Source: a virus. Taken from it: a DNA stretch of 23,370 nt. The stretch is from positions 1 to 23,370 of the IMG/VR virus record IMGVR_UViG_3300048584_000286. One strand, given 5' to 3'. Each line of letters opens with the position of its first letter. Positions within the stretch are counted from its first letter, which is position 1. Below, in pieces: positions 1-23,370 of the stretch. The notes beneath the pieces are model-generated. The model was not told the origin of the DNA and did not search any database. It saw only the letters and a program-made list of their open reading frames with translations. A program made the position numbers and the translations under genes.

Positions 1-531
1 GGCGTCGAGTCCGGAAAGCACGGGCGGAAGCTCATTCTCGAATTTTGCCCGCAAGATGGATGACGCCTGGGCGACCAGACCGATCCATTCCTCGCGGACC
101 TTGGTGAGCGGGACGTATTCGCCCTTTTTCACTGCAATGCGCAGCTCACGTTCCTCCACTTCGGCCAAGAGTTTGCGGGCCTTGAGCGCCTCTTCGTTGC
201 CAACCGGCACGCGACCGGCATTCAAGCCGCGGAGCCGGACGAACTCGCGCCAGTCAGCCACCGGCCAGAGTCCGTTGGAGAGCGCCTTCGGCGAGCCGTC
301 CATCTTTTGCCAAGTGGAAAGCGTGCGGCGAGACACCCCGAGCACGGCGGCGAGTTCCACCAGAGTCTGTGCGTAAGCGAGCGTATCCGCGCTGCCCGCC
401 GCCCGGGATTCGATGCGCGTGCGCTCAGCGACGGTGAGCGGCTTCCCTGCGGCGACTTTCTTGACGATGTTTTGAAAATCGGCGTCGAGGATTTTACCCG
501 CGATGTCCGGTGACAGTTCCTTTGGCTCCAC
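1..531 (-). CDS. Phage terminase small subunit, Nu1-like (3' end outside window)
   Basis: Probably the DNA-recognition subunit of the packaging terminase. The frame has 177 codons without a stop and runs off the left edge. A GTG start is chosen because an in-frame TAA lies only two codons upstream. Residues about 57-100 carry a helix-turn-helix (TLVELAAVLGVSRRTLSTW, then a wing-like DWREFVRLRG), the layout of the gpNu1 and phage small-terminase family. A charged helix follows (about 113-140, EEALKARKLLAEVEERELR), typical of the linker and oligomerisation region. It is the last gene of the leftward transcription unit, and a large terminase subunit would be expected just outside the window. The start has only a weak AAGG close to the GTG. 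Another HTH DNA-binding role is possible. Confidence 0.72.
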   Translation of the reverse strand, partial: MEPKELSPDIAGKILDADFQNIVKKVAAGKPLTVAERTRIESRAAGSADTLAYAQTLVELAAVLGVSRRTLSTWQKMDGSPKALSNGLWPVADWREFVRLRGLNAGRVPVGNEEALKARKLLAEVEERELRIAVKKGEYVPLTKVREEWIGLVAQASSILRAKFENELPPVLSGLDA

Positions 532-546
532 GCCTTAGAGAAACTG

Positions 547-1287
547 TCAATCCCCGGGCCTGAGTCTGTATTGAATGAACCGTTCAATCTTCTGCATTCC
601 GCAGCCAGCCAGTTCTTTCATTGGCCACACCTTGCTGAAGTCAAGACTCCACATGTTCTCCGCCTTGGCCGCGTCAGGACTCCGAACTATTTCGCGAAGT
701 TCTTCCAATAGATCCACGACATCACGCTGGGAAATCTGTCCGTCGGCAGCGTTGGCAAGAAGATCAAGAATGAACTCCCGAACGCATAGGATCATGATTT
801 GCACATGGTTCACGTCGTTGCGCTCGGTCTGATCCAACGTGACGACATTGCATATCTTGGCTTTCAATACCTTGATGGGAGCCAAAAGATGCACCACGAG
901 ATTGCCAACTGTGACCTGAATCGCGTCGGCGAGTTCATCACGCGTGAGGCCTTTTACATCCCGCAGCACTTCGATTTTCCGGAGTCCATCGCCCAATGAT
1001 GCCTCAACATAACCAATCACCGGACTTCTCGGCTCGGAATAGAAAACGGCCCCATTGGTGACCCGCTTGATGTGTTCCAGAAGCTCGCGGTTGCCTGCGA
1101 TGTCGAGATCTTTGCTGGTGAAAGGACGATAACGTGCCAGCTTGCGACCGATACGTTTCGAATAGTAGATGGCCCATGCGTTTGCGGCCTGCCCACCAAC
1201 GACAATGGGTACTGGCAGCCCTGCCTCCACTCCGAGAACATCGGAATAGTCGCCGAGTCCTGTCGGCTGTCTCATCGCGTCGCTCAC
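547..1287 (-). CDS. Nucleotidyltransferase-fold protein, AbiEii/MNT-like, probable toxin or enzyme of a two-gene module
   Basis: The frame stays open upstream to 1512, but the supported start is GTG at 1287, whose GTGA overlaps the stop of the 64-aa gene; ATG at 1275 is an alternative. The 246-aa product shows the minimal nucleotidyltransferase signature: GG at residues 31-32 inside a hydrophobic strand and helix (VPIVVGGQAANAWA), then SKDLDI at about 58-63, supplying the DxD pair that binds metal and NTP. The rest is mixed helix and strand with no second recognisable domain. Proteins of this type include AbiEii toxins and MNT antitoxins, and they are usually paired with a small partner gene, as here. 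Position between CmoA and the terminase, with its own promoter, suggests a cargo gene. Which partner is toxic cannot be told from sequence. Confidence 0.68.
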   Translation of the reverse strand: MSDAMRQPTGLGDYSDVLGVEAGLPVPIVVGGQAANAWAIYYSKRIGRKLARYRPFTSKDLDIAGNRELLEHIKRVTNGAVFYSEPRSPVIGYVEASLGDGLRKIEVLRDVKGLTRDELADAIQVTVGNLVVHLLAPIKVLKAKICNVVTLDQTERNDVNHVQIMILCVREFILDLLANAADGQISQRDVVDLLEELREIVRSPDAAKAENMWSLDFSKVWPMKELAGCGMQKIERFIQYRLRPGD

Positions 1288-1478
1288 CTGGCCCTGCGAT
1301 TTTTGACGTATCCCGCGAGATCGACGATTCTCATAGTCGCTCCGACTGGAATGAATGAGTTTGTCTCCTGCAGTTTCCGAGCGGAAGTCTTTCCGGAACG
1401 CAAGGCACGAGCATCCTCGGCCCGCTCCTTTTGATGGGCTTTTTGAATTTCGAGGAAATTGACCGTATTGCGGCTCAC
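1284..1478 (-). CDS. Small basic protein, 64 aa, partner of the nucleotidyltransferase
   Basis: Starts with GTG at 1478 and ends on a TGA that overlaps the GTG of the nucleotidyltransferase gene, so the two are probably translationally coupled. The product is rich in Lys, Arg and Glu. An N-terminal helix (about 8-35, containing QKAHQKERAEDARALR) precedes a short hydrophobic strand (RIVDLAGYV). No family is recognised. The order of a small gene followed by a nucleotidyltransferase is that of toxin-antitoxin and minimal-nucleotidyltransferase modules. A sigma70-like promoter sits immediately upstream and would give an almost leaderless mRNA. There is no Shine-Dalgarno. It is believed because of the coupling and the promoter. 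Confidence 0.55.
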   Translation of the reverse strand: MSRNTVNFLEIQKAHQKERAEDARALRSGKTSARKLQETNSFIPVGATMRIVDLAGYVKNRRAR

Positions 1479-1484
1479 GGTTTG

Positions 1485-1512
1485 AACATAGCAGGCCTCG
1501 GCGCGGGGTCAA
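1485..1512 (-). promoter_or_regulatory. Sigma70-like promoter for the 64-aa/nucleotidyltransferase pair
   Basis: On the minus strand TTGACC (1512-1507, 5/6 match to TTGACA) and TATGTT (1490-1485, 4/6 match to TATAAT) are separated by 16 bp. Only 6 nt separate the -10 box from the GTG at 1478, so transcription would begin at or next to the start codon (a leaderless message). It lies in the 74-bp gap after the CmoA-like gene. Confidence 0.45.
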
Positions 1513-1552: not shown

Positions 1553-2275
1553 TCACGGCTTCACTGCCACCCATCCGGCGAAGTTCAGGTGCCGCCAGAA
1601 GCAATCGACCGAGGTGAAACCTTCCTGATGAAGAAGTTCCTCGTTCCAGCGGGCGGTGACCGGAACCAGCACGCCTTCAAGTGACAGCCGTTTCCGGTCG
1701 ATCTGGCTGTCGGAATACCCGTTCTCCCGCTTGATCTGGAGGAAGAGATTCACGAACGCCTCATCGAGCTTGGACGTGGCCCCGAGCACCTTTTCGACTA
1801 GGATGAAGGCTCCGCCCGGCGCGAGCGACTCGAAGACGCGGCGGATGATCTGCTGGCGGTATTCGATGGGGGTGAATTGCAGGGTGAGCACCGAGAGCAC
1901 GAGGCTGGATGTCACACCAGGGAACTCGTGGCGCAGGTCGGCAGACTGGATGCTGACGCGGTTGCCGTGCTGGTGGTAGTTGAAGTTCTCTCGTGCCGCC
2001 TCGATCATCGGCTCGCTGATTTCCAGGCCGATGTAATCGTTGGCCGCGCCGAAGTTGGAGACGAACGGCAGGAGCGCCTGACCGCGTGAGCATCCCATGT
2101 CGATGATGGCGGTTCCCGGTTGCACGAAGCGCCGGCCAACCTCGAAGGTCACCATGCGCATCGCGTTGTATTGCGGGATGCTCCGCTGGAGCATGTCGTC
2201 GAACACCGCAGTCACTTCCTGATCGAACTGCCAGGCTCCGCGTGGAATCACCTCATCACGTTGGGCTTCACTCAT
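1553..2275 (-). CDS. CmoA-like SAM-dependent enzyme (carboxy-SAM synthase family)
   Basis: At 240 aa it matches CmoA in length and order of motifs: an N-terminal WQFDQEVTAVFDDMLQRSIPQY stretch in two parts (15-36), FVQPGT (50-55), SAM-binding motif I IIDMGCSRGQA (57-67), the ribose-binding acidic residue in IGLEIS (82-87), TLQF (131-134), LAPGGAFILVEK (151-162), KRENGY (182-187) and a conserved RKRLSLEGVLVPVT run (194-207). Known CmoA converts SAM and prephenate to carboxy-S-adenosylmethionine, used by CmoB on tRNA wobble uridine. No CmoB is visible here. The gene starts 16 nt after the HAD-like gene in a phage-type operon, so the product may supply carboxy-SAM to a phage modification enzyme, or may be a divergent methyltransferase. 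No clear ribosome binding site is visible. Confidence 0.82.
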   Translation of the reverse strand: MSEAQRDEVIPRGAWQFDQEVTAVFDDMLQRSIPQYNAMRMVTFEVGRRFVQPGTAIIDMGCSRGQALLPFVSNFGAANDYIGLEISEPMIEAARENFNYHQHGNRVSIQSADLRHEFPGVTSSLVLSVLTLQFTPIEYRQQIIRRVFESLAPGGAFILVEKVLGATSKLDEAFVNLFLQIKRENGYSDSQIDRKRLSLEGVLVPVTARWNEELLHQEGFTSVDCFWRHLNFAGWVAVKP

Positions 2276-2744: not shown

Positions 2745-4255
2745 AGGGTAATCTGAAGACGTTGGGAGAAAGAGTCCATGGCGCATTTCACGAGATCCAT
2801 GCGGGTGCCGTCCGGATAGGGCAGGTTGAATTCGAACTCGATGGCCGCACGCAGGCGGGCTGGATCGACGGGACGCGCCGACGCACAGGCCGCGTTGATG
2901 TTGTTGGAAAAGTCAGCCACCTTCACCGAGCGGAAGAACGGGCCGAACAAGTCGCGGAATTCGGACTCGGTGTGATACTTCTGGACCTTCGGCTTGTCCT
3001 GAAAATCGCCGATGCGGATGCCTGGTTCGTAGTCGAGACGGAACGCGATGTTTCCGGCGTTGGACTCGTTCATGAACGCCTTGCCATTGACCTGCCGCCA
3101 GCCGGACTCCCCGGCTGAGGATGCGCAGGCATAGACCTTGGTGAACGGCTTGCACAGGGCAGCACACAGGCAGGCGATGTGCTCGCGATCCTCACGAAAG
3201 GGCACGGAGTTCAAGACGCTGGCGATGAAGATGCTGGTCCATTCCTTGCCCGCTGCGACTTCGGCTAGAAAGGCCCGTGCCAGTTCCACGCTTTCCGCTT
3301 TGTTGATGCCCCCTGGTCCAAGGCGATACGGCTCGAACGGCGTGCAGTCGATACCGGCCTGGCGCAGGAGGAAGGTTTCGGTCAGGTGGCCGGCACCAAA
3401 GTCGAGGATCGTCGAACCATGTTCCTTGGTCCAGCGGGTGCGGTCAGATGCCTTGCCGATGTCGAAATCCTTGCATGGCTTCGCGCCATGCGTGGCGAAG
3501 ACGAAGCCGTTGCCGAGCTCGCGCCTCACGCGGCGTGCGCGGCGGAACGAATTGAAGCGGAGCATGTCGGCATAACGCGTGTGGATGTCGAAATCCATCG
3601 ACAGCAGGTTCATCATTGCCCGGGCGAATTCTGCTTCCTCCTCGGTGACGAACACAACCGGTGCGAACGCCGCGCCCTTTTCGGCCAGCATTTCCAACCT
3701 GCCGATGCCATTGATGACCGTGAGATCCTCGCGGCAGACGATGGGCATGAGGATGCCGTGGCGATGCAGCGTGCGTGCGAGGTTGCGGGCATACTGGATC
3801 CAGCGGCCGGAGTTCACCTTGCAGAGATCCTTGACTGCGACTTCCGCAGGCTTAAGGCAGCGAAGGAAACAATCGCTGCCAACCTCCTTGTCGGGGATGC
3901 GGGCGGCAAGCGCTTGAATGTCGAGTGATTGCAGCTCGCTGGTGACTCTGCTGGGCGTGCTATTAAAATCGAAATCGTTGGTCGCCCGGTTGAACACGAT
4001 ATTGAGTGCCTTGCGCTGGTCGAGGTCGAGAGCCTTGGTTCGGGATACCGGGATGTGCGTGGCACCCATGCGCGATGCGACGAGGTGGCGCTGGTGACCG
4101 GAAAGAATCTCTCCGTCCGAGTCAGCGAAGATCGGCGCGATGAAGCCGAGCTTGCGAAGCGACAACTCGATCAGGTCGAGACGCTCGGCAACCGCCGTCC
4201 GAGGATTGTAGGTCGATGGTCTAACGGATTCGATGGATTCAAGGGTGATGTTCAT
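2741..4255 (-). CDS. Two ParB/Srx-like domains fused to a SAM-methyltransferase-like domain
   Basis: The ATG at 4255 overlaps the previous stop (ATGA); the frame is open further upstream but homology starts here. Residues 1-75 form a ParB-fold domain (NPRT at 17-20, GHQRH at 53-57, then IPV). Residues about 150-205 repeat the same architecture (ARNLARTLHRHGILMPIV, INGIGRLEML, APVVFV), suggesting a second, degenerate ParB-like domain. From about 280 a Rossmann methyltransferase motif I is visible (STILDFGAGHL, 281-291), with a downstream acidic FEPYRL (307-312) and IASVLNSVPF. There is no DPPY/NPPF or PCQ motif of a standard DNA methylase. In phages such proteins accompany DNA modification. 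The reaction here is unknown. The HAD-like gene is coupled immediately downstream. Confidence 0.65.
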   Translation of the reverse strand: MNITLESIESVRPSTYNPRTAVAERLDLIELSLRKLGFIAPIFADSDGEILSGHQRHLVASRMGATHIPVSRTKALDLDQRKALNIVFNRATNDFDFNSTPSRVTSELQSLDIQALAARIPDKEVGSDCFLRCLKPAEVAVKDLCKVNSGRWIQYARNLARTLHRHGILMPIVCREDLTVINGIGRLEMLAEKGAAFAPVVFVTEEEAEFARAMMNLLSMDFDIHTRYADMLRFNSFRRARRVRRELGNGFVFATHGAKPCKDFDIGKASDRTRWTKEHGSTILDFGAGHLTETFLLRQAGIDCTPFEPYRLGPGGINKAESVELARAFLAEVAAGKEWTSIFIASVLNSVPFREDREHIACLCAALCKPFTKVYACASSAGESGWRQVNGKAFMNESNAGNIAFRLDYEPGIRIGDFQDKPKVQKYHTESEFRDLFGPFFRSVKVADFSNNINAACASARPVDPARLRAAIEFEFNLPYPDGTRMDLVKCAMDSFSQRLQITL

Positions 4256-20422: not shown

Positions 20423-20887
20423 ATGCCCATGCCAGCCATCATCGACGGAGGGGTGTTGCCCGGAGGCATCCACGATTGCTCGTTGGATGAGGTGCGCGCG
20501 ATGTTTGCCGCCTCTCCTTGGCGAGCTAAACTTCTGGACCGCTTCGACCAGTTTCTCAAACGGCTCGATGAGTTCATTCCTGACACTCGCATCACCCTCT
20601 ACCTCGATGGGAGTTTCACCACGAATTGGGAGTGCAACGACATCGACGTGATTATTGAGGCACGCGATTTCGAGGGAGATAAAACAGATCATCTTCGGAA
20701 GCTGGTCAGTGTGCGCGCAAGGCATGAGTTTATGGATGTTTACAGCGTTGTAATCCATGTCGTCGTCCCTGGACTACGGGGCCGCGACTTTCGCCAGTGG
20801 TTTCAGAGAGTCAAAGGAGAGGAAGCCTGGCGATTTGGAAATGAAGTCAACGCCCTGCGGAAAGGAATCGTCCGGTTGTCGCTATGA
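20423..20887 (+). CDS. DUF6932-like nucleotidyltransferase
   Basis: 154 aa from ATG 20423 (ATG 20429 also possible). The opening IIDGGVLPGGIHDCSLDEVRAMFAA and then LYLDGSFTTNWECNDIDVIIEA match the DUF6932 family: GS at 63-64 and DID at 73-75 supply the nucleotidyltransferase metal site. These proteins look like minimal NTases that modify an RNA or a partner protein. The stop overlaps the next start (ATGA), so the pair is coupled. This is the second unrelated small NTase in the window, after 547-1287. Confidence 0.75.
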   Translation: MPMPAIIDGGVLPGGIHDCSLDEVRAMFAASPWRAKLLDRFDQFLKRLDEFIPDTRITLYLDGSFTTNWECNDIDVIIEARDFEGDKTDHLRKLVSVRARHEFMDVYSVVIHVVVPGLRGRDFRQWFQRVKGEEAWRFGNEVNALRKGIVRLSL

Positions 20888-21951
20888 ATGACCCATCTAA
20901 ACAGCTACCGTGGCAGAAACTGGTGGATCGCAAGGCGAGTGAACTCATCGAGCACGTCGCGGCGACTTACGATTGGGTGAAGACACATGGGAAATCAGAT
21001 CCCACCTTTTTCCACGACATGGCGGCCGATCAGTTCCAGTGGCTCCGCGAACTTTATGAGCGCGAACTGCCGTTGGCCAAAATGCTCGACGAAGCGGACT
21101 TGACCGTCGAGCTATGGTGTCCGGATGCCCACTTTTCCTACCCTCGCTTGAGCGTAGTGTCATCGACATTCGCCAAGCTCCGAAAAAATGTTGCTCATGT
21201 AACCAAGGCGGTTGCCGGCGTCAGAGATCCTCAGAATGGCCGACCTTTCCACATGCCGGAAGAGATGGAGCTCGGGTTCAGTTCGCTTATCCAAAGTGGC
21301 ACCGTCCGATTCGGATTTAGCTTGCCCCGTCCCGAAGATTCGCTCTTCAATCACGATGACCCGCTGTATCAGGCGGTCGCGAGCGCGGTATCGGCAATCA
21401 AAACAGTTAGTTTTTCACTCTCCGAAATTGATGACGAGGCTGATTTCGAAAAAGAGGTTAAGCTGGCATTGACTGATCCCAAATTGCGCGACTCCGCACT
21501 GATTGCAGTGCGAGAACTCGCACCATCCGGGCGATCTCACGGCATCAAGGGGGTTTCGATTGCGGGAGCTGGTGTTAGCCTCTCCGATGTGAAGCCCCTT
21601 ACTAAGGAGAGTCGCCAGACAGTTCGTCATCTTCTCGCCACTCCGGTAAAACGCACCGAGGTCATTACCATCACCGGAATCGTTCGTGAAACCGACCTCG
21701 ACGACAAACGCTTTGAAGTTCGCGGAATCGAAGACGGCTTCGTTACCGACCTCCGCTGCATCTACGGCCCCAAGGTCGCCGATCCCATTGCCTCGAAGTG
21801 GCTCAATCACAAGGTCGAGGTCACGGGGCGGGTTGAGCGAGACGCCAGCGGCCGGGCCAGGCTGATGAAAGTCGCCCACCTGAAGCTCGTCGATGCCCCG
21901 AATGACACCCAACAACAGATCGAATTCGATTTTCCTGACGAAAATCGGTAA
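20884..21951 (+). CDS. 355-aa protein with predicted C-terminal OB-like domain, coupled to the DUF6932 NTase
   Basis: ATG 20884 overlaps the NTase stop (ATGA). The N-terminal ~110 residues are helical and then strand-rich (LVDRKASELIEHVAATYDWVK; LTVELWCPDAHFSYPRLSVVSS). The middle contains FSLPRPEDSLFNHDDPLYQAVASAVSAIK in parts and a helical stretch. From about 255 to 335 the alternation TEVITITGIVRETDLDDKRFEVRGIEDG, LRCIYG, NHKVEVTGRVERD and RLMKVAHLKLVD suggests a five-stranded OB fold. No catalytic motif is recognised. It may be the NTase's target or an effector that binds nucleic acid, as inferred from the coupling only. Confidence 0.6.
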   Translation: MNDPSKQLPWQKLVDRKASELIEHVAATYDWVKTHGKSDPTFFHDMAADQFQWLRELYERELPLAKMLDEADLTVELWCPDAHFSYPRLSVVSSTFAKLRKNVAHVTKAVAGVRDPQNGRPFHMPEEMELGFSSLIQSGTVRFGFSLPRPEDSLFNHDDPLYQAVASAVSAIKTVSFSLSEIDDEADFEKEVKLALTDPKLRDSALIAVRELAPSGRSHGIKGVSIAGAGVSLSDVKPLTKESRQTVRHLLATPVKRTEVITITGIVRETDLDDKRFEVRGIEDGFVTDLRCIYGPKVADPIASKWLNHKVEVTGRVERDASGRARLMKVAHLKLVDAPNDTQQQIEFDFPDENR

Positions 21952-22016
21952 AAATCCGAGCATACCCCCGCAAATGTCCCACCCCACTTTCTAAAATCAA
22001 TCTCTCACCTCACTAA
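21952..22016 (+). other. Short gap before the brxA-position gene
   Basis: 65 bp of pyrimidine-rich sequence. No promoter or Shine-Dalgarno is evident, so read-through from the upstream genes is the simplest view. Confidence 0.4.
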
Positions 22017-22829
22017 ATGTCCGATTTCCTGCCGACCGCCGATCTCAATTTCCCATCTACTTTGGTGCCGTTTGGTTTTTCCTCCAACCGGACGGGAGGA
22101 CACATGGCTCGTTCCATGATGCTTCAGGAGCTTGAAGAGATTTGTCGGTCGATGCCCGAGAACTCGGTTCCATCCGATTACCAGCGGGCGATTGAGCCGG
22201 AGAATCTTCTTGGGAAACCCACTTTCGGCAGCAGGCAAAAAACCTATCGTCATTTGGTCGAACTCTACGGTTTGAATCCAAATTTGCCGCTTTTTCGGGT
22301 TTTGAGGCGATTCGCCACGGAAGATCCGGCGAGCATTCCGCTGATGGGGATGCTCTGCTGCTTCTGCCGCGATCCTCAACTGCGGCAGAGCTTCAGTCTC
22401 ATTGATTCACTGAAGCCCGGCGAGGTTCTGCCACGGGTTCGTATGGAAGCGCACCTTGAAGCTGGATTCCCAGGCGTCTTCAGCGACCCAATGAAGAAAT
22501 CTCTTGCGCAAAACGTGAATACAACCTGGACGGTTGTGGGGCATCTCGACGGGCGTTCTACCAAGCGCCGGGACCTGCCTAAGCCGCTGCCTAGTGCCAC
22601 CGCCTATGCGATGTTTGCCGGCTGGCTCTCGGGACTGAGGGGCCAGATTCTACTCAATTCTATTTTTGGCCACCTTGTCGCCCTGACACCGGATCAAATA
22701 CTGAATCATCTCTCGGCGGCCTCCGCCCGTGGATGGCTTCGCTTGAGGAATGCAGGTGGAGTCACGGAGATCGACTTTTCGCCGCTTCTAACTAAACAAG
22801 AGCAGGACCTTATTCATGTCACGCATTGA
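22017..22829 (+). CDS. BREX-associated protein in the brxA position, 270 aa
   Basis: Start ATG 22017 is used because SNRTGGHMARSMMLQELEE seems conserved; ATG 22104, preceded by GGGAGG, would shorten it by 29 residues. The body (residues about 60-100: LLGKPTFGSRQKTYRHLVELYGLNP; then ATEDPASIPLMGMLCCFCRDPQLRQS; VNTTWTVVGHLDGRSTKRRD; AMFAGWLSGLRGQILL) is all-helical with a winged end. It is not clearly DUF1819 (BrxA) but resembles proteins encoded directly before brxB in defence islands. The brxB start lies 14 nt inside its end. Confidence 0.6.
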   Translation: MSDFLPTADLNFPSTLVPFGFSSNRTGGHMARSMMLQELEEICRSMPENSVPSDYQRAIEPENLLGKPTFGSRQKTYRHLVELYGLNPNLPLFRVLRRFATEDPASIPLMGMLCCFCRDPQLRQSFSLIDSLKPGEVLPRVRMEAHLEAGFPGVFSDPMKKSLAQNVNTTWTVVGHLDGRSTKRRDLPKPLPSATAYAMFAGWLSGLRGQILLNSIFGHLVALTPDQILNHLSAASARGWLRLRNAGGVTEIDFSPLLTKQEQDLIHVTH

Positions 22830-23370
22830 TCAGATTCTAACAAACTTTCGAACGCACGTCTCACAGCCGCTGCGCATCGATTTTCCTTTGAGCCAGCGGA
22901 TTTGGTTTGTGGTTTATCCTCCTGAGGACGAGCGCAGGCTAGGACCTCGATTGCCTGAGTTCGAACTCGCAACCAAGGACGCCGGACTCGAATGGGTGCG
23001 GGTCGATGTCTCCGGGTCATTCGCCGATTGGCTCGATAGCCGGGATGACAAAGATGTGATACTCGGAGATCCGGAGTTGGTGGAAACCTACGCTGACCCT
23101 GGATACGTCGATTTCCTAAAAGAGCGTCTGACGGATGCCGTCTCACAGCAAACTCCGAGTTTCCTTGATCGCACGGTTTTCGCACTCACTGGCCTGATGG
23201 AGCTTTATGATTTTGTCCACGTTTCAAGCATCATGGACGCTTTGGATTCAAAGTTCCCAGGCGTGCTTCTCGTGTTTTTCCCCGGCGAGCGTGAAAACAA
23301 CACCTATCGATTTCTCGGTGCCCGCGATGGTTGGGACTACCTTGCCGTGCCTATTTTAGCCGAATCCTAA
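22816..23370 (+). CDS. brxB: BrxB (DUF1788), component of a BREX phage-exclusion system
   Basis: 184 aa with the DUF1788 signature from end to end: MSRIDQILTNF, RIWFVVYPPEDERRLGPRLPEFEL in parts (28-51), VDVSGSFADWL (63-73), LTGLMELYDFVHVSSIMDAL (124-143), LLVFFPGERENNTYR (151-165) and ARDGWDYLAVPI (169-180). BrxB is a core cytoplasmic BREX protein of unknown biochemical activity, required for host DNA methylation and phage exclusion. The stop codon is the last triplet of the window, so further BREX genes (brxC, pglX, pglZ) would be expected just outside. Confidence 0.82.
   Translation: MSRIDQILTNFRTHVSQPLRIDFPLSQRIWFVVYPPEDERRLGPRLPEFELATKDAGLEWVRVDVSGSFADWLDSRDDKDVILGDPELVETYADPGYVDFLKERLTDAVSQQTPSFLDRTVFALTGLMELYDFVHVSSIMDALDSKFPGVLLVFFPGERENNTYRFLGARDGWDYLAVPILAES

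Follow-up and report, generated by a model that had tools for sequence, protein, structure and literature searches.

The DNA analysed here (hereinafter the window) spans an entire IMG/VR virus record (23,370 bases), whose gene set is that of a tailed phage and includes a terminase small subunit, a primase, a helicase, a Sak4-like protein, an exonuclease and a clamp-loader-like ATPase. On the minus strand of the window, a CmoA-like gene is followed by a promoter, by the gene of a 64-aa protein, by that of a nucleotidyltransferase (NTase) and, lastly, by the terminase gene (Table 1). The CmoA-like gene matched TIGR00740 with an E-value of 2.5e-49 (below that model's cut-off) and phrog_4752 with one of 2.4e-74; the terminase small subunit matched phrog_57 (E 8e-12). 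The two inner genes form a small overlapping pair with the putative antitoxin first, that is, the layout of type II toxin-antitoxin systems. The coordinates, the overlap and the promoter sequence given in the preliminary description of this DNA all proved exact when the sequence was read again. Neither an Rfam match nor a tRNA gene was found anywhere in the window.

Table 1. Position of the features discussed in the text (numbering of the window).
Feature	Coordinates	Strand	Remarks
64-aa basic protein, putative antitoxin	1284..1478	-	GTG start; no recognisable DNA-binding domain
246-aa NTase, putative toxin	547..1287	-	GTG start; S58-x-D60-x-D62, K144, D158
GTGA overlap coupling the 64-aa gene and the NTase gene	1284..1287	-
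CmoA-like methyltransferase-fold gene, left flank of the cargo slot	1553..2275	-	TIGR00740, phrog_4752
Terminase small subunit, right flank of the cargo slot	1..531	-	phrog_57; runs off the window
-35 box of the module promoter, TTGACC	1507..1512	-	TTGAC kept in 11/11 distinct loci
-10 box TATGTT, extended (TG before it)	1485..1490	-	6 nt ahead of the GTG start at 1478
TTGACA before the terminase gene	545..550	-	13 nt before the terminase start
Candidate operator of a chromosomal ribbon-helix-helix homologue (not a feature of the window)			GGTTGAATCAACC
DUF6932 protein, also PDC-M63A, ahead of BrxA	20423-20887	+
BrxA	22017-22829	+	PADLOC E 1.9e-74
BrxB, first part	22816-23370	+	PADLOC E 7.7e-51

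Viral contigs and one MAG contain further copies of the pair, some close and others distant. The preliminary description had proposed a module of two genes, and this was borne out in the relatives: the 64-aa gene lies directly before the NTase gene in all the complete phage copies, and it is also kept, as a motif, beside most of the chromosomal NTase homologues. The comparison with three close phages (L005, L006 and L007) revealed purifying selection on both genes, with dN/dS values of 0.05-0.15 for the 64-aa gene and of 0.07-0.21 for the NTase, and 29 of the 64 columns of the small protein are invariant over ten sequences. In principle, the pair might be a decayed or non-functional remnant. 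In one sister locus (L003), the NTase frame ends early, ahead of a PIN-like gene (a match to Pfam PIN at E 0.012, below its cut-off) and a frame of 81 aa (2757-3495); the MAG that contains this locus also has a full-length copy (L002). Moreover, two plasmid copies, L018 and L019, appear damaged. However, the low dN/dS values and the invariant catalytic residues of the group to which the window belongs render such a decay hardly credible.

As to the nature of the NTase (P0002), no Pfam family was matched at E up to 1, nor any NCBIfam or PADLOC model; P0001 and P0002 both lack a match in Pfam, NCBIfam and PADLOC, and have only weak and unnamed ones in PHROGs. The search of 25 NTases against Pfam and PADLOC did not reveal a consistent family, nor any AbiEii, toxin or defence family; in PADLOC, one or two of the homologues weakly resembled Cas2-type models. 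At E up to 0.1, no match to the DUF1814/AbiEii models of Pfam was obtained for any of the 25 aligned NTases and, since this sequence-family test failed, we make no claim of DUF1814 membership. No sequence match was detectable among the PDB chains, MenT1 included. Two weak records (E 7e-3) retrieved from GenBank phages fell inside an annotated baseplate gene and were not used.

The AlphaFold model of the NTase (pLDDT 89.3, pTM 0.89) found its best VIA-align match in MenT1 (8an4; Z 11.3, 169 aligned residues, rmsd 3.7), the other solved neighbours being ANT(2'')-Ia (Z 10.9), a fungal NTase-like protein (10.4), MenT3 (9.8) and LnuA (8.9). The Foldseek E-values were modest (1.1e-3 to 2.5e-3 for MenT1), as were the matches with viral predicted models, mostly unnamed or generally NTase-like. 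Hence, the model has the fold of MenT toxins in a non-specific manner: MenT1, ANT(2'')-Ia and the fungal protein are tied, so the fold alone cannot separate a toxin from an antibiotic modifier. The active site is well conserved: all the 25 aligned NTases share S58, D60 and D62, and each of K144 and D158 occurs in at least 90% of them, so that the family possesses the quartet S/T, D (of DxD), K, D. These residues correspond to T39, D41, K137 and D152 of MenT1, an equivalence of order and spacing and not of residue-level superposition. In MenT1 these four residues are reported as conserved, with D41, K137 and D152 needed for toxicity, and the phosphate acceptors are given as T39 in MenT1 and S78 in MenT3 (available text of PMC10435456 and PMC11375011). 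In E. coli, MenT1 itself is reported not to be detectably toxic (available text of PMC10435456). The presence of ANT(2'')-Ia and LnuA at scores tied with or near that of MenT1 would also suit an enzyme of the ANT(2'')/Lnu kind modifying a small molecule (a drug or a metabolite), with the 64-aa protein as an accessory or a regulator, and it is the partner gene and the neighbourhood that speak on this possibility.

The 64-aa protein yielded a poor model (pLDDT 62), with two or three helices of low confidence, which is compatible with a protein that would fold on its partner. When the profile of the short partners was compared with the PDB, it did not match any antitoxin, MenA1 included. In hhalign, however, the family aligns (E 4.5e-7) with the C-terminal segment of the longer partners encoded on chromosomes. 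In 13 loci (L034-L046, among which L038/L043 and L041/L044 are near-duplicates), the partner is 125-134 aa long and joins an N-terminal ribbon-helix-helix (RHH) domain to a C-terminal segment resembling the 64-aa family, and the same layout recurs in a 117-aa version in L032 and L033. RHH_1 was matched by 4 of these 13 long partners (best E 5.9e-5), and, of the 13 PDB profile matches of the family, the top seven are CopG/Arc/MetJ-type proteins or the antitoxin EndoAI (best E 0.02). Other loci have a short partner as in the phage (L047, L048, L051, L052, Rhizobium with 69 aa and Sphingobium with 61 aa). A pattern common to the partners, roughly R-x2-D-x3-L-x9-[LI]-Q-x2-N, was found in its strict form beside 18 of the 28 NTase loci vs 2 of the 1478 other ORFs of those loci, one of the 18 matches (L033) being spurious, in the RHH part, and L052 and L058 being one locus. 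By eye, a looser or displaced motif can be recognised in L032, L033, L034 and L052, and one with a different spacing in L049 and L057; in at least two NTase loci (L050 and L059), the ORF found upstream lacks the motif.

The palindrome GGTTGNNNCAACC precedes the antitoxin gene in 13 of the 13 RHH loci, once per fetched stretch, and in the form GGTTGN3CAACC it ends 5-19 nt before the antitoxin start in all of them; by contrast, none of the seven phage loci examined, window included, contains a palindrome better than those of shuffled sequences. The phage partner looks like an antitoxin without its DNA-binding domain and its operator. The simplest reading of these comparisons is that on chromosomes the RHH antitoxin would repress its own operon, and that the phage form may correspond to the neutralising segment alone. 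Such a conserved and coupled small partner, with versions that carry an RHH domain and a palindrome, is the layout of a toxin-antitoxin system and not what would be expected of a small-molecule modifier, a role that we consider quite unlikely also in the light of the HipBA modules found among the alternative cargo of the same phage slot (see below).

A profile search disclosed NTase homologues in 26 of 387 Verrucomicrobiota genomes, 22 of them beyond short marginal matches, that is, once G125, G216, G223 and G263 (46-62 residues, E above 1e-4) were left out, and tblastn added homologues on plasmids of Rhizobium, Sphingobium, Mesorhizobium, Agrobacterium, Chroococcidiopsis and Termitidicoccus. 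The host of the phage may be verrucomicrobial, as suggested by the one MAG, in which the locus occurs twice. This MAG (CAMCYK01, with L002 and L003) is labelled Akkermansia muciniphila and listed at 6.3 Mb, which exceeds the genome size of that species, and its label may be wrong. The pair of the Sphingobium plasmid (L020, 2283-5591) adjoins annotated CBASS genes (Mov34, ThiF and cGAMP synthase). This adjacency, together with the position of the phage copies in a cargo slot, would also fit a pair devoted to abortive infection or defence, with the 64-aa protein acting as its sensor or activator instead of as an antitoxin. We regard this as unlikely, given that the chromosomal partners resemble RHH antitoxins with their own operator.

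The slot itself was analysed by comparing the CmoA-terminase junctions of viral contigs, of two MAG contigs and of the window, drawn from the best 80 of 118 and the best 80 of 171 matches and deduplicated by sequence. Among the matches listed, 46 of the 86 rows have a near-empty junction (gap of 65 nt or less), and the filled ones contain a 63-aa gene (12 rows), the NTase pair (9), HipBA (5, two of which are the first cassette of composite contigs), an HNH-like gene named by eye and without a Pfam match (3), a 136-aa gene (2), the composite as a whole, from end to end (2), or single cases (7), with L015 and L016 counted in more than one class. With more than ten kinds of content over these 86 rows, from the matches listed, the junction behaves as a hotspot of phage cargo. 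The idea, put forward in the preliminary description, that the pair is independent cargo inserted between CmoA and the terminase is thus strongly supported, the junction being near-empty in those 46 rows and variable in the rest. The same comparison bears on the possibility that the NTase is a phage enzyme of translation control, without toxic function, acting on tRNA together with the CmoA-like protein: the CmoA-like gene does lie directly upstream of the pair in the phage copies, but it precedes the slot whatever the cargo, in those 46 rows of the matches listed it occurs without the pair, and the chromosomal homologues have an RHH-type partner upstream instead. This makes such a partnership very improbable.

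Some contigs retain possible traces of cargo exchange. The HipBA cassette (HipA_C E 2.4e-51, plus an HTH partner) and the NTase pair stand in tandem in L015 and L016, which are contigs from two metagenomes, in the order HipBA, fused terminase/CmoA fragments, NTase pair and intact terminase. The fused element (3655-3958), lying between the two cassettes, consists of a 5' fragment of the terminase gene joined to a 3' fragment of the CmoA one, a scar that fits the acquisition of cassettes by recombination in the flanks. In L210, an HTH gene resembling the one in the HipBA cassettes is followed by an NTase pair 40% identical to that of the window. Other cargo, observed among L127, L158, L161, L153 and L159, comprises a DUF6994 protein (E 7e-86), a DUF3223 protein (E 5e-16) and proteins of 214, 226 and 136 aa without a Pfam match.

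Concerning expression, the two boxes of the module promoter are separated by 16 nt. Taken by itself, such a match is within chance (2 sites found vs 1.1 expected in 5 kb); the promoter becomes credible because it recurs before the GTG in each of the 11 distinct loci, in which both genes and the GTG start are likewise conserved; every one of these upstream sequences has TTGAC followed by any of the four bases, a spacer of 16 or 17 nt and a -10 box whose end lies 6-9 nt ahead of the GTG (in L210, this distance refers to the GTG chosen for that locus). Mononucleotide shuffles gave per-locus P values from 0.000 to 0.055, the weakest being those of L007 (0.055) and L008 (0.046). An early alignment in which these two loci appeared to be devoid of a -35 box was overturned by the later scan, which recovered TTGACT-17-TAAATA. 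The same scan at 22 other positions of the window, two of which (2750 and 16800) are not start codons, scored at most 8, vs 9.5 at the module. Since the promoter position is conserved in 11 of 11 sequences and no other tested start of the window scores as high, a leaderless mRNA, as postulated in the preliminary description, appears likely, the comparison among relatives being the part of the evidence that speaks for it. In Mycobacterium tuberculosis, toxin-antitoxin transcripts are described as mostly leaderless (available text of PMC8485053). The idea that leaderless promoters are common to all the cargo of the slot was rejected: clear scores were obtained only for the NTase pair and, in L161, for the gene of 214 aa (P 0.003), members of the 63-aa class gave mixed values (P 0.04 to 0.79), and the HNH, PIN-like and other cargo genes did not exhibit a leaderless-type promoter by the same scan.

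The known system most similar to this pair is MenAT1 of M. tuberculosis, in which a very small antitoxin, MenA1 (68 aa vs 64 here), is encoded upstream of an NTase; MenA1 is without a DNA-binding domain (as described in the available text of PMC10435456) and none is recognisable in the 64-aa protein, the toxin fold and the S/T-x-D-x-D signature are shared, and MenAT1 is described as devoid of transcriptional autoregulation in the part of PMC11375011 that deals with it. Unlike MenAT1, the pair of the window is phage cargo, has a partner motif of its own and chromosomal cousins that use RHH antitoxins, and has no detectable sequence match to MenT1 or MenA1. MenAT3 and AbiE (the COG5340-DUF1814/AbiEii type IV systems) are also bicistronic antitoxin-NTase operons, and the fold of MenT3 is close as well, but the NTase of the window does not match Pfam DUF1814/AbiEii and its partners are of RHH type or without a recognisable DNA-binding domain, whereas those antitoxins have a DNA-binding domain of the winged-helix type (MenA3, in the available text of PMC11375011), and an antitoxin of this type is said to be able to repress its own operon at inverted repeats (available text of PMC7319586). 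HipBA fills the same slot in sister phages, yet it comprises a kinase toxin and an HTH antitoxin, unrelated to the proteins of the NTase pair. Lastly, the slot recalls the anti-phage hotspots of P2 and P4, described as small loci with a high turnover between two conserved phage genes, by the cos site (Rousset et al. 2022, available text of PMC9122126); here, the variable slot lies beside the terminase small subunit of an uncultivated phage lineage, and the cargo observed is toxin-type or unnamed. In the open-licence literature, we did not find a paper joining an RHH antitoxin with an NTase toxin, nor, among the papers listed, one joining DUF1814 with CopG in such a system.

On the whole, an unclassified toxin-antitoxin module of the MenAT-like type is the best reading of the pair, and we consider it probable that it represents a mobile cassette of this kind carried by a tailed phage. 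The preliminary description had left the choice between a toxin-antitoxin and an abortive infection pair; the fold, the gene order and the homologues with RHH domain and palindrome favour the former, abortive infection being one possible use of it. In the model that we infer, the host RNA polymerase would read TTGACC-16-TATGTT and begin transcription on the GTG itself or one or two bases away from it, and the resulting leaderless mRNA would encode the 64-aa antitoxin first, the translation of the NTase being coupled to it through the GTGA overlap. The NTase, as a MenT-type enzyme, would most likely add nucleotides to RNA, probably at the acceptor ends of tRNA, and, if unchecked, would stop translation; the 64-aa protein would bind and silence it, as the similarly sized MenA1 does with MenT1, possibly by promoting phosphorylation at S58. 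In the chromosomal relatives, the same neutralising segment would be fused to an RHH repressor acting at the palindromic operator, and the phage form, which appears to lack both, would be expressed without self-repression. A probable use, because the slot is where related phages swap toxin-type cargo, might be either to shield the cell, infected or lysogenic, against competing phages or to enforce retention.

More tentatively, and with somewhat less than even confidence, one might go further and see here a family of NTase toxin-antitoxin systems not described before, whose neutralising segment would be naked in phages but, on chromosomes, fused to a self-repressing RHH domain, residing in an uncultivated phage lineage with a terminase-side slot for the swapping and the tandem stacking of cassettes, and relying on a leaderless promoter to keep the antitoxin made under translation stress. 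If this were true, a toxin-antitoxin family would have been missed by profile libraries, an antitoxin travelling as phage cargo could do without its DNA-binding half, and the terminase-side slot of a common environmental phage lineage would be a place in which to seek further anti-phage systems and toxins. By setting the RHH form against the naked one, the role of autoregulation can be tested directly.

Two further features of the window deserve mention. Its minus strand contains four TTGACA sites, three of which (550, 2295 and 4929) lie just before phage genes, 13-15 nt from the start codons of the terminase, CmoA and ParB-like genes, and are without a fitting -10 box by eye; the terminase-side one occurs in the cargo-bearing junctions, except for the HNH class, and is absent from the near-empty ones. 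On the plus strand, positions 20423-23370 correspond to the start of a BREX operon, carried by this viral contig and cut by the contig end, in which a 355-aa protein also precedes BrxA and BrxB.
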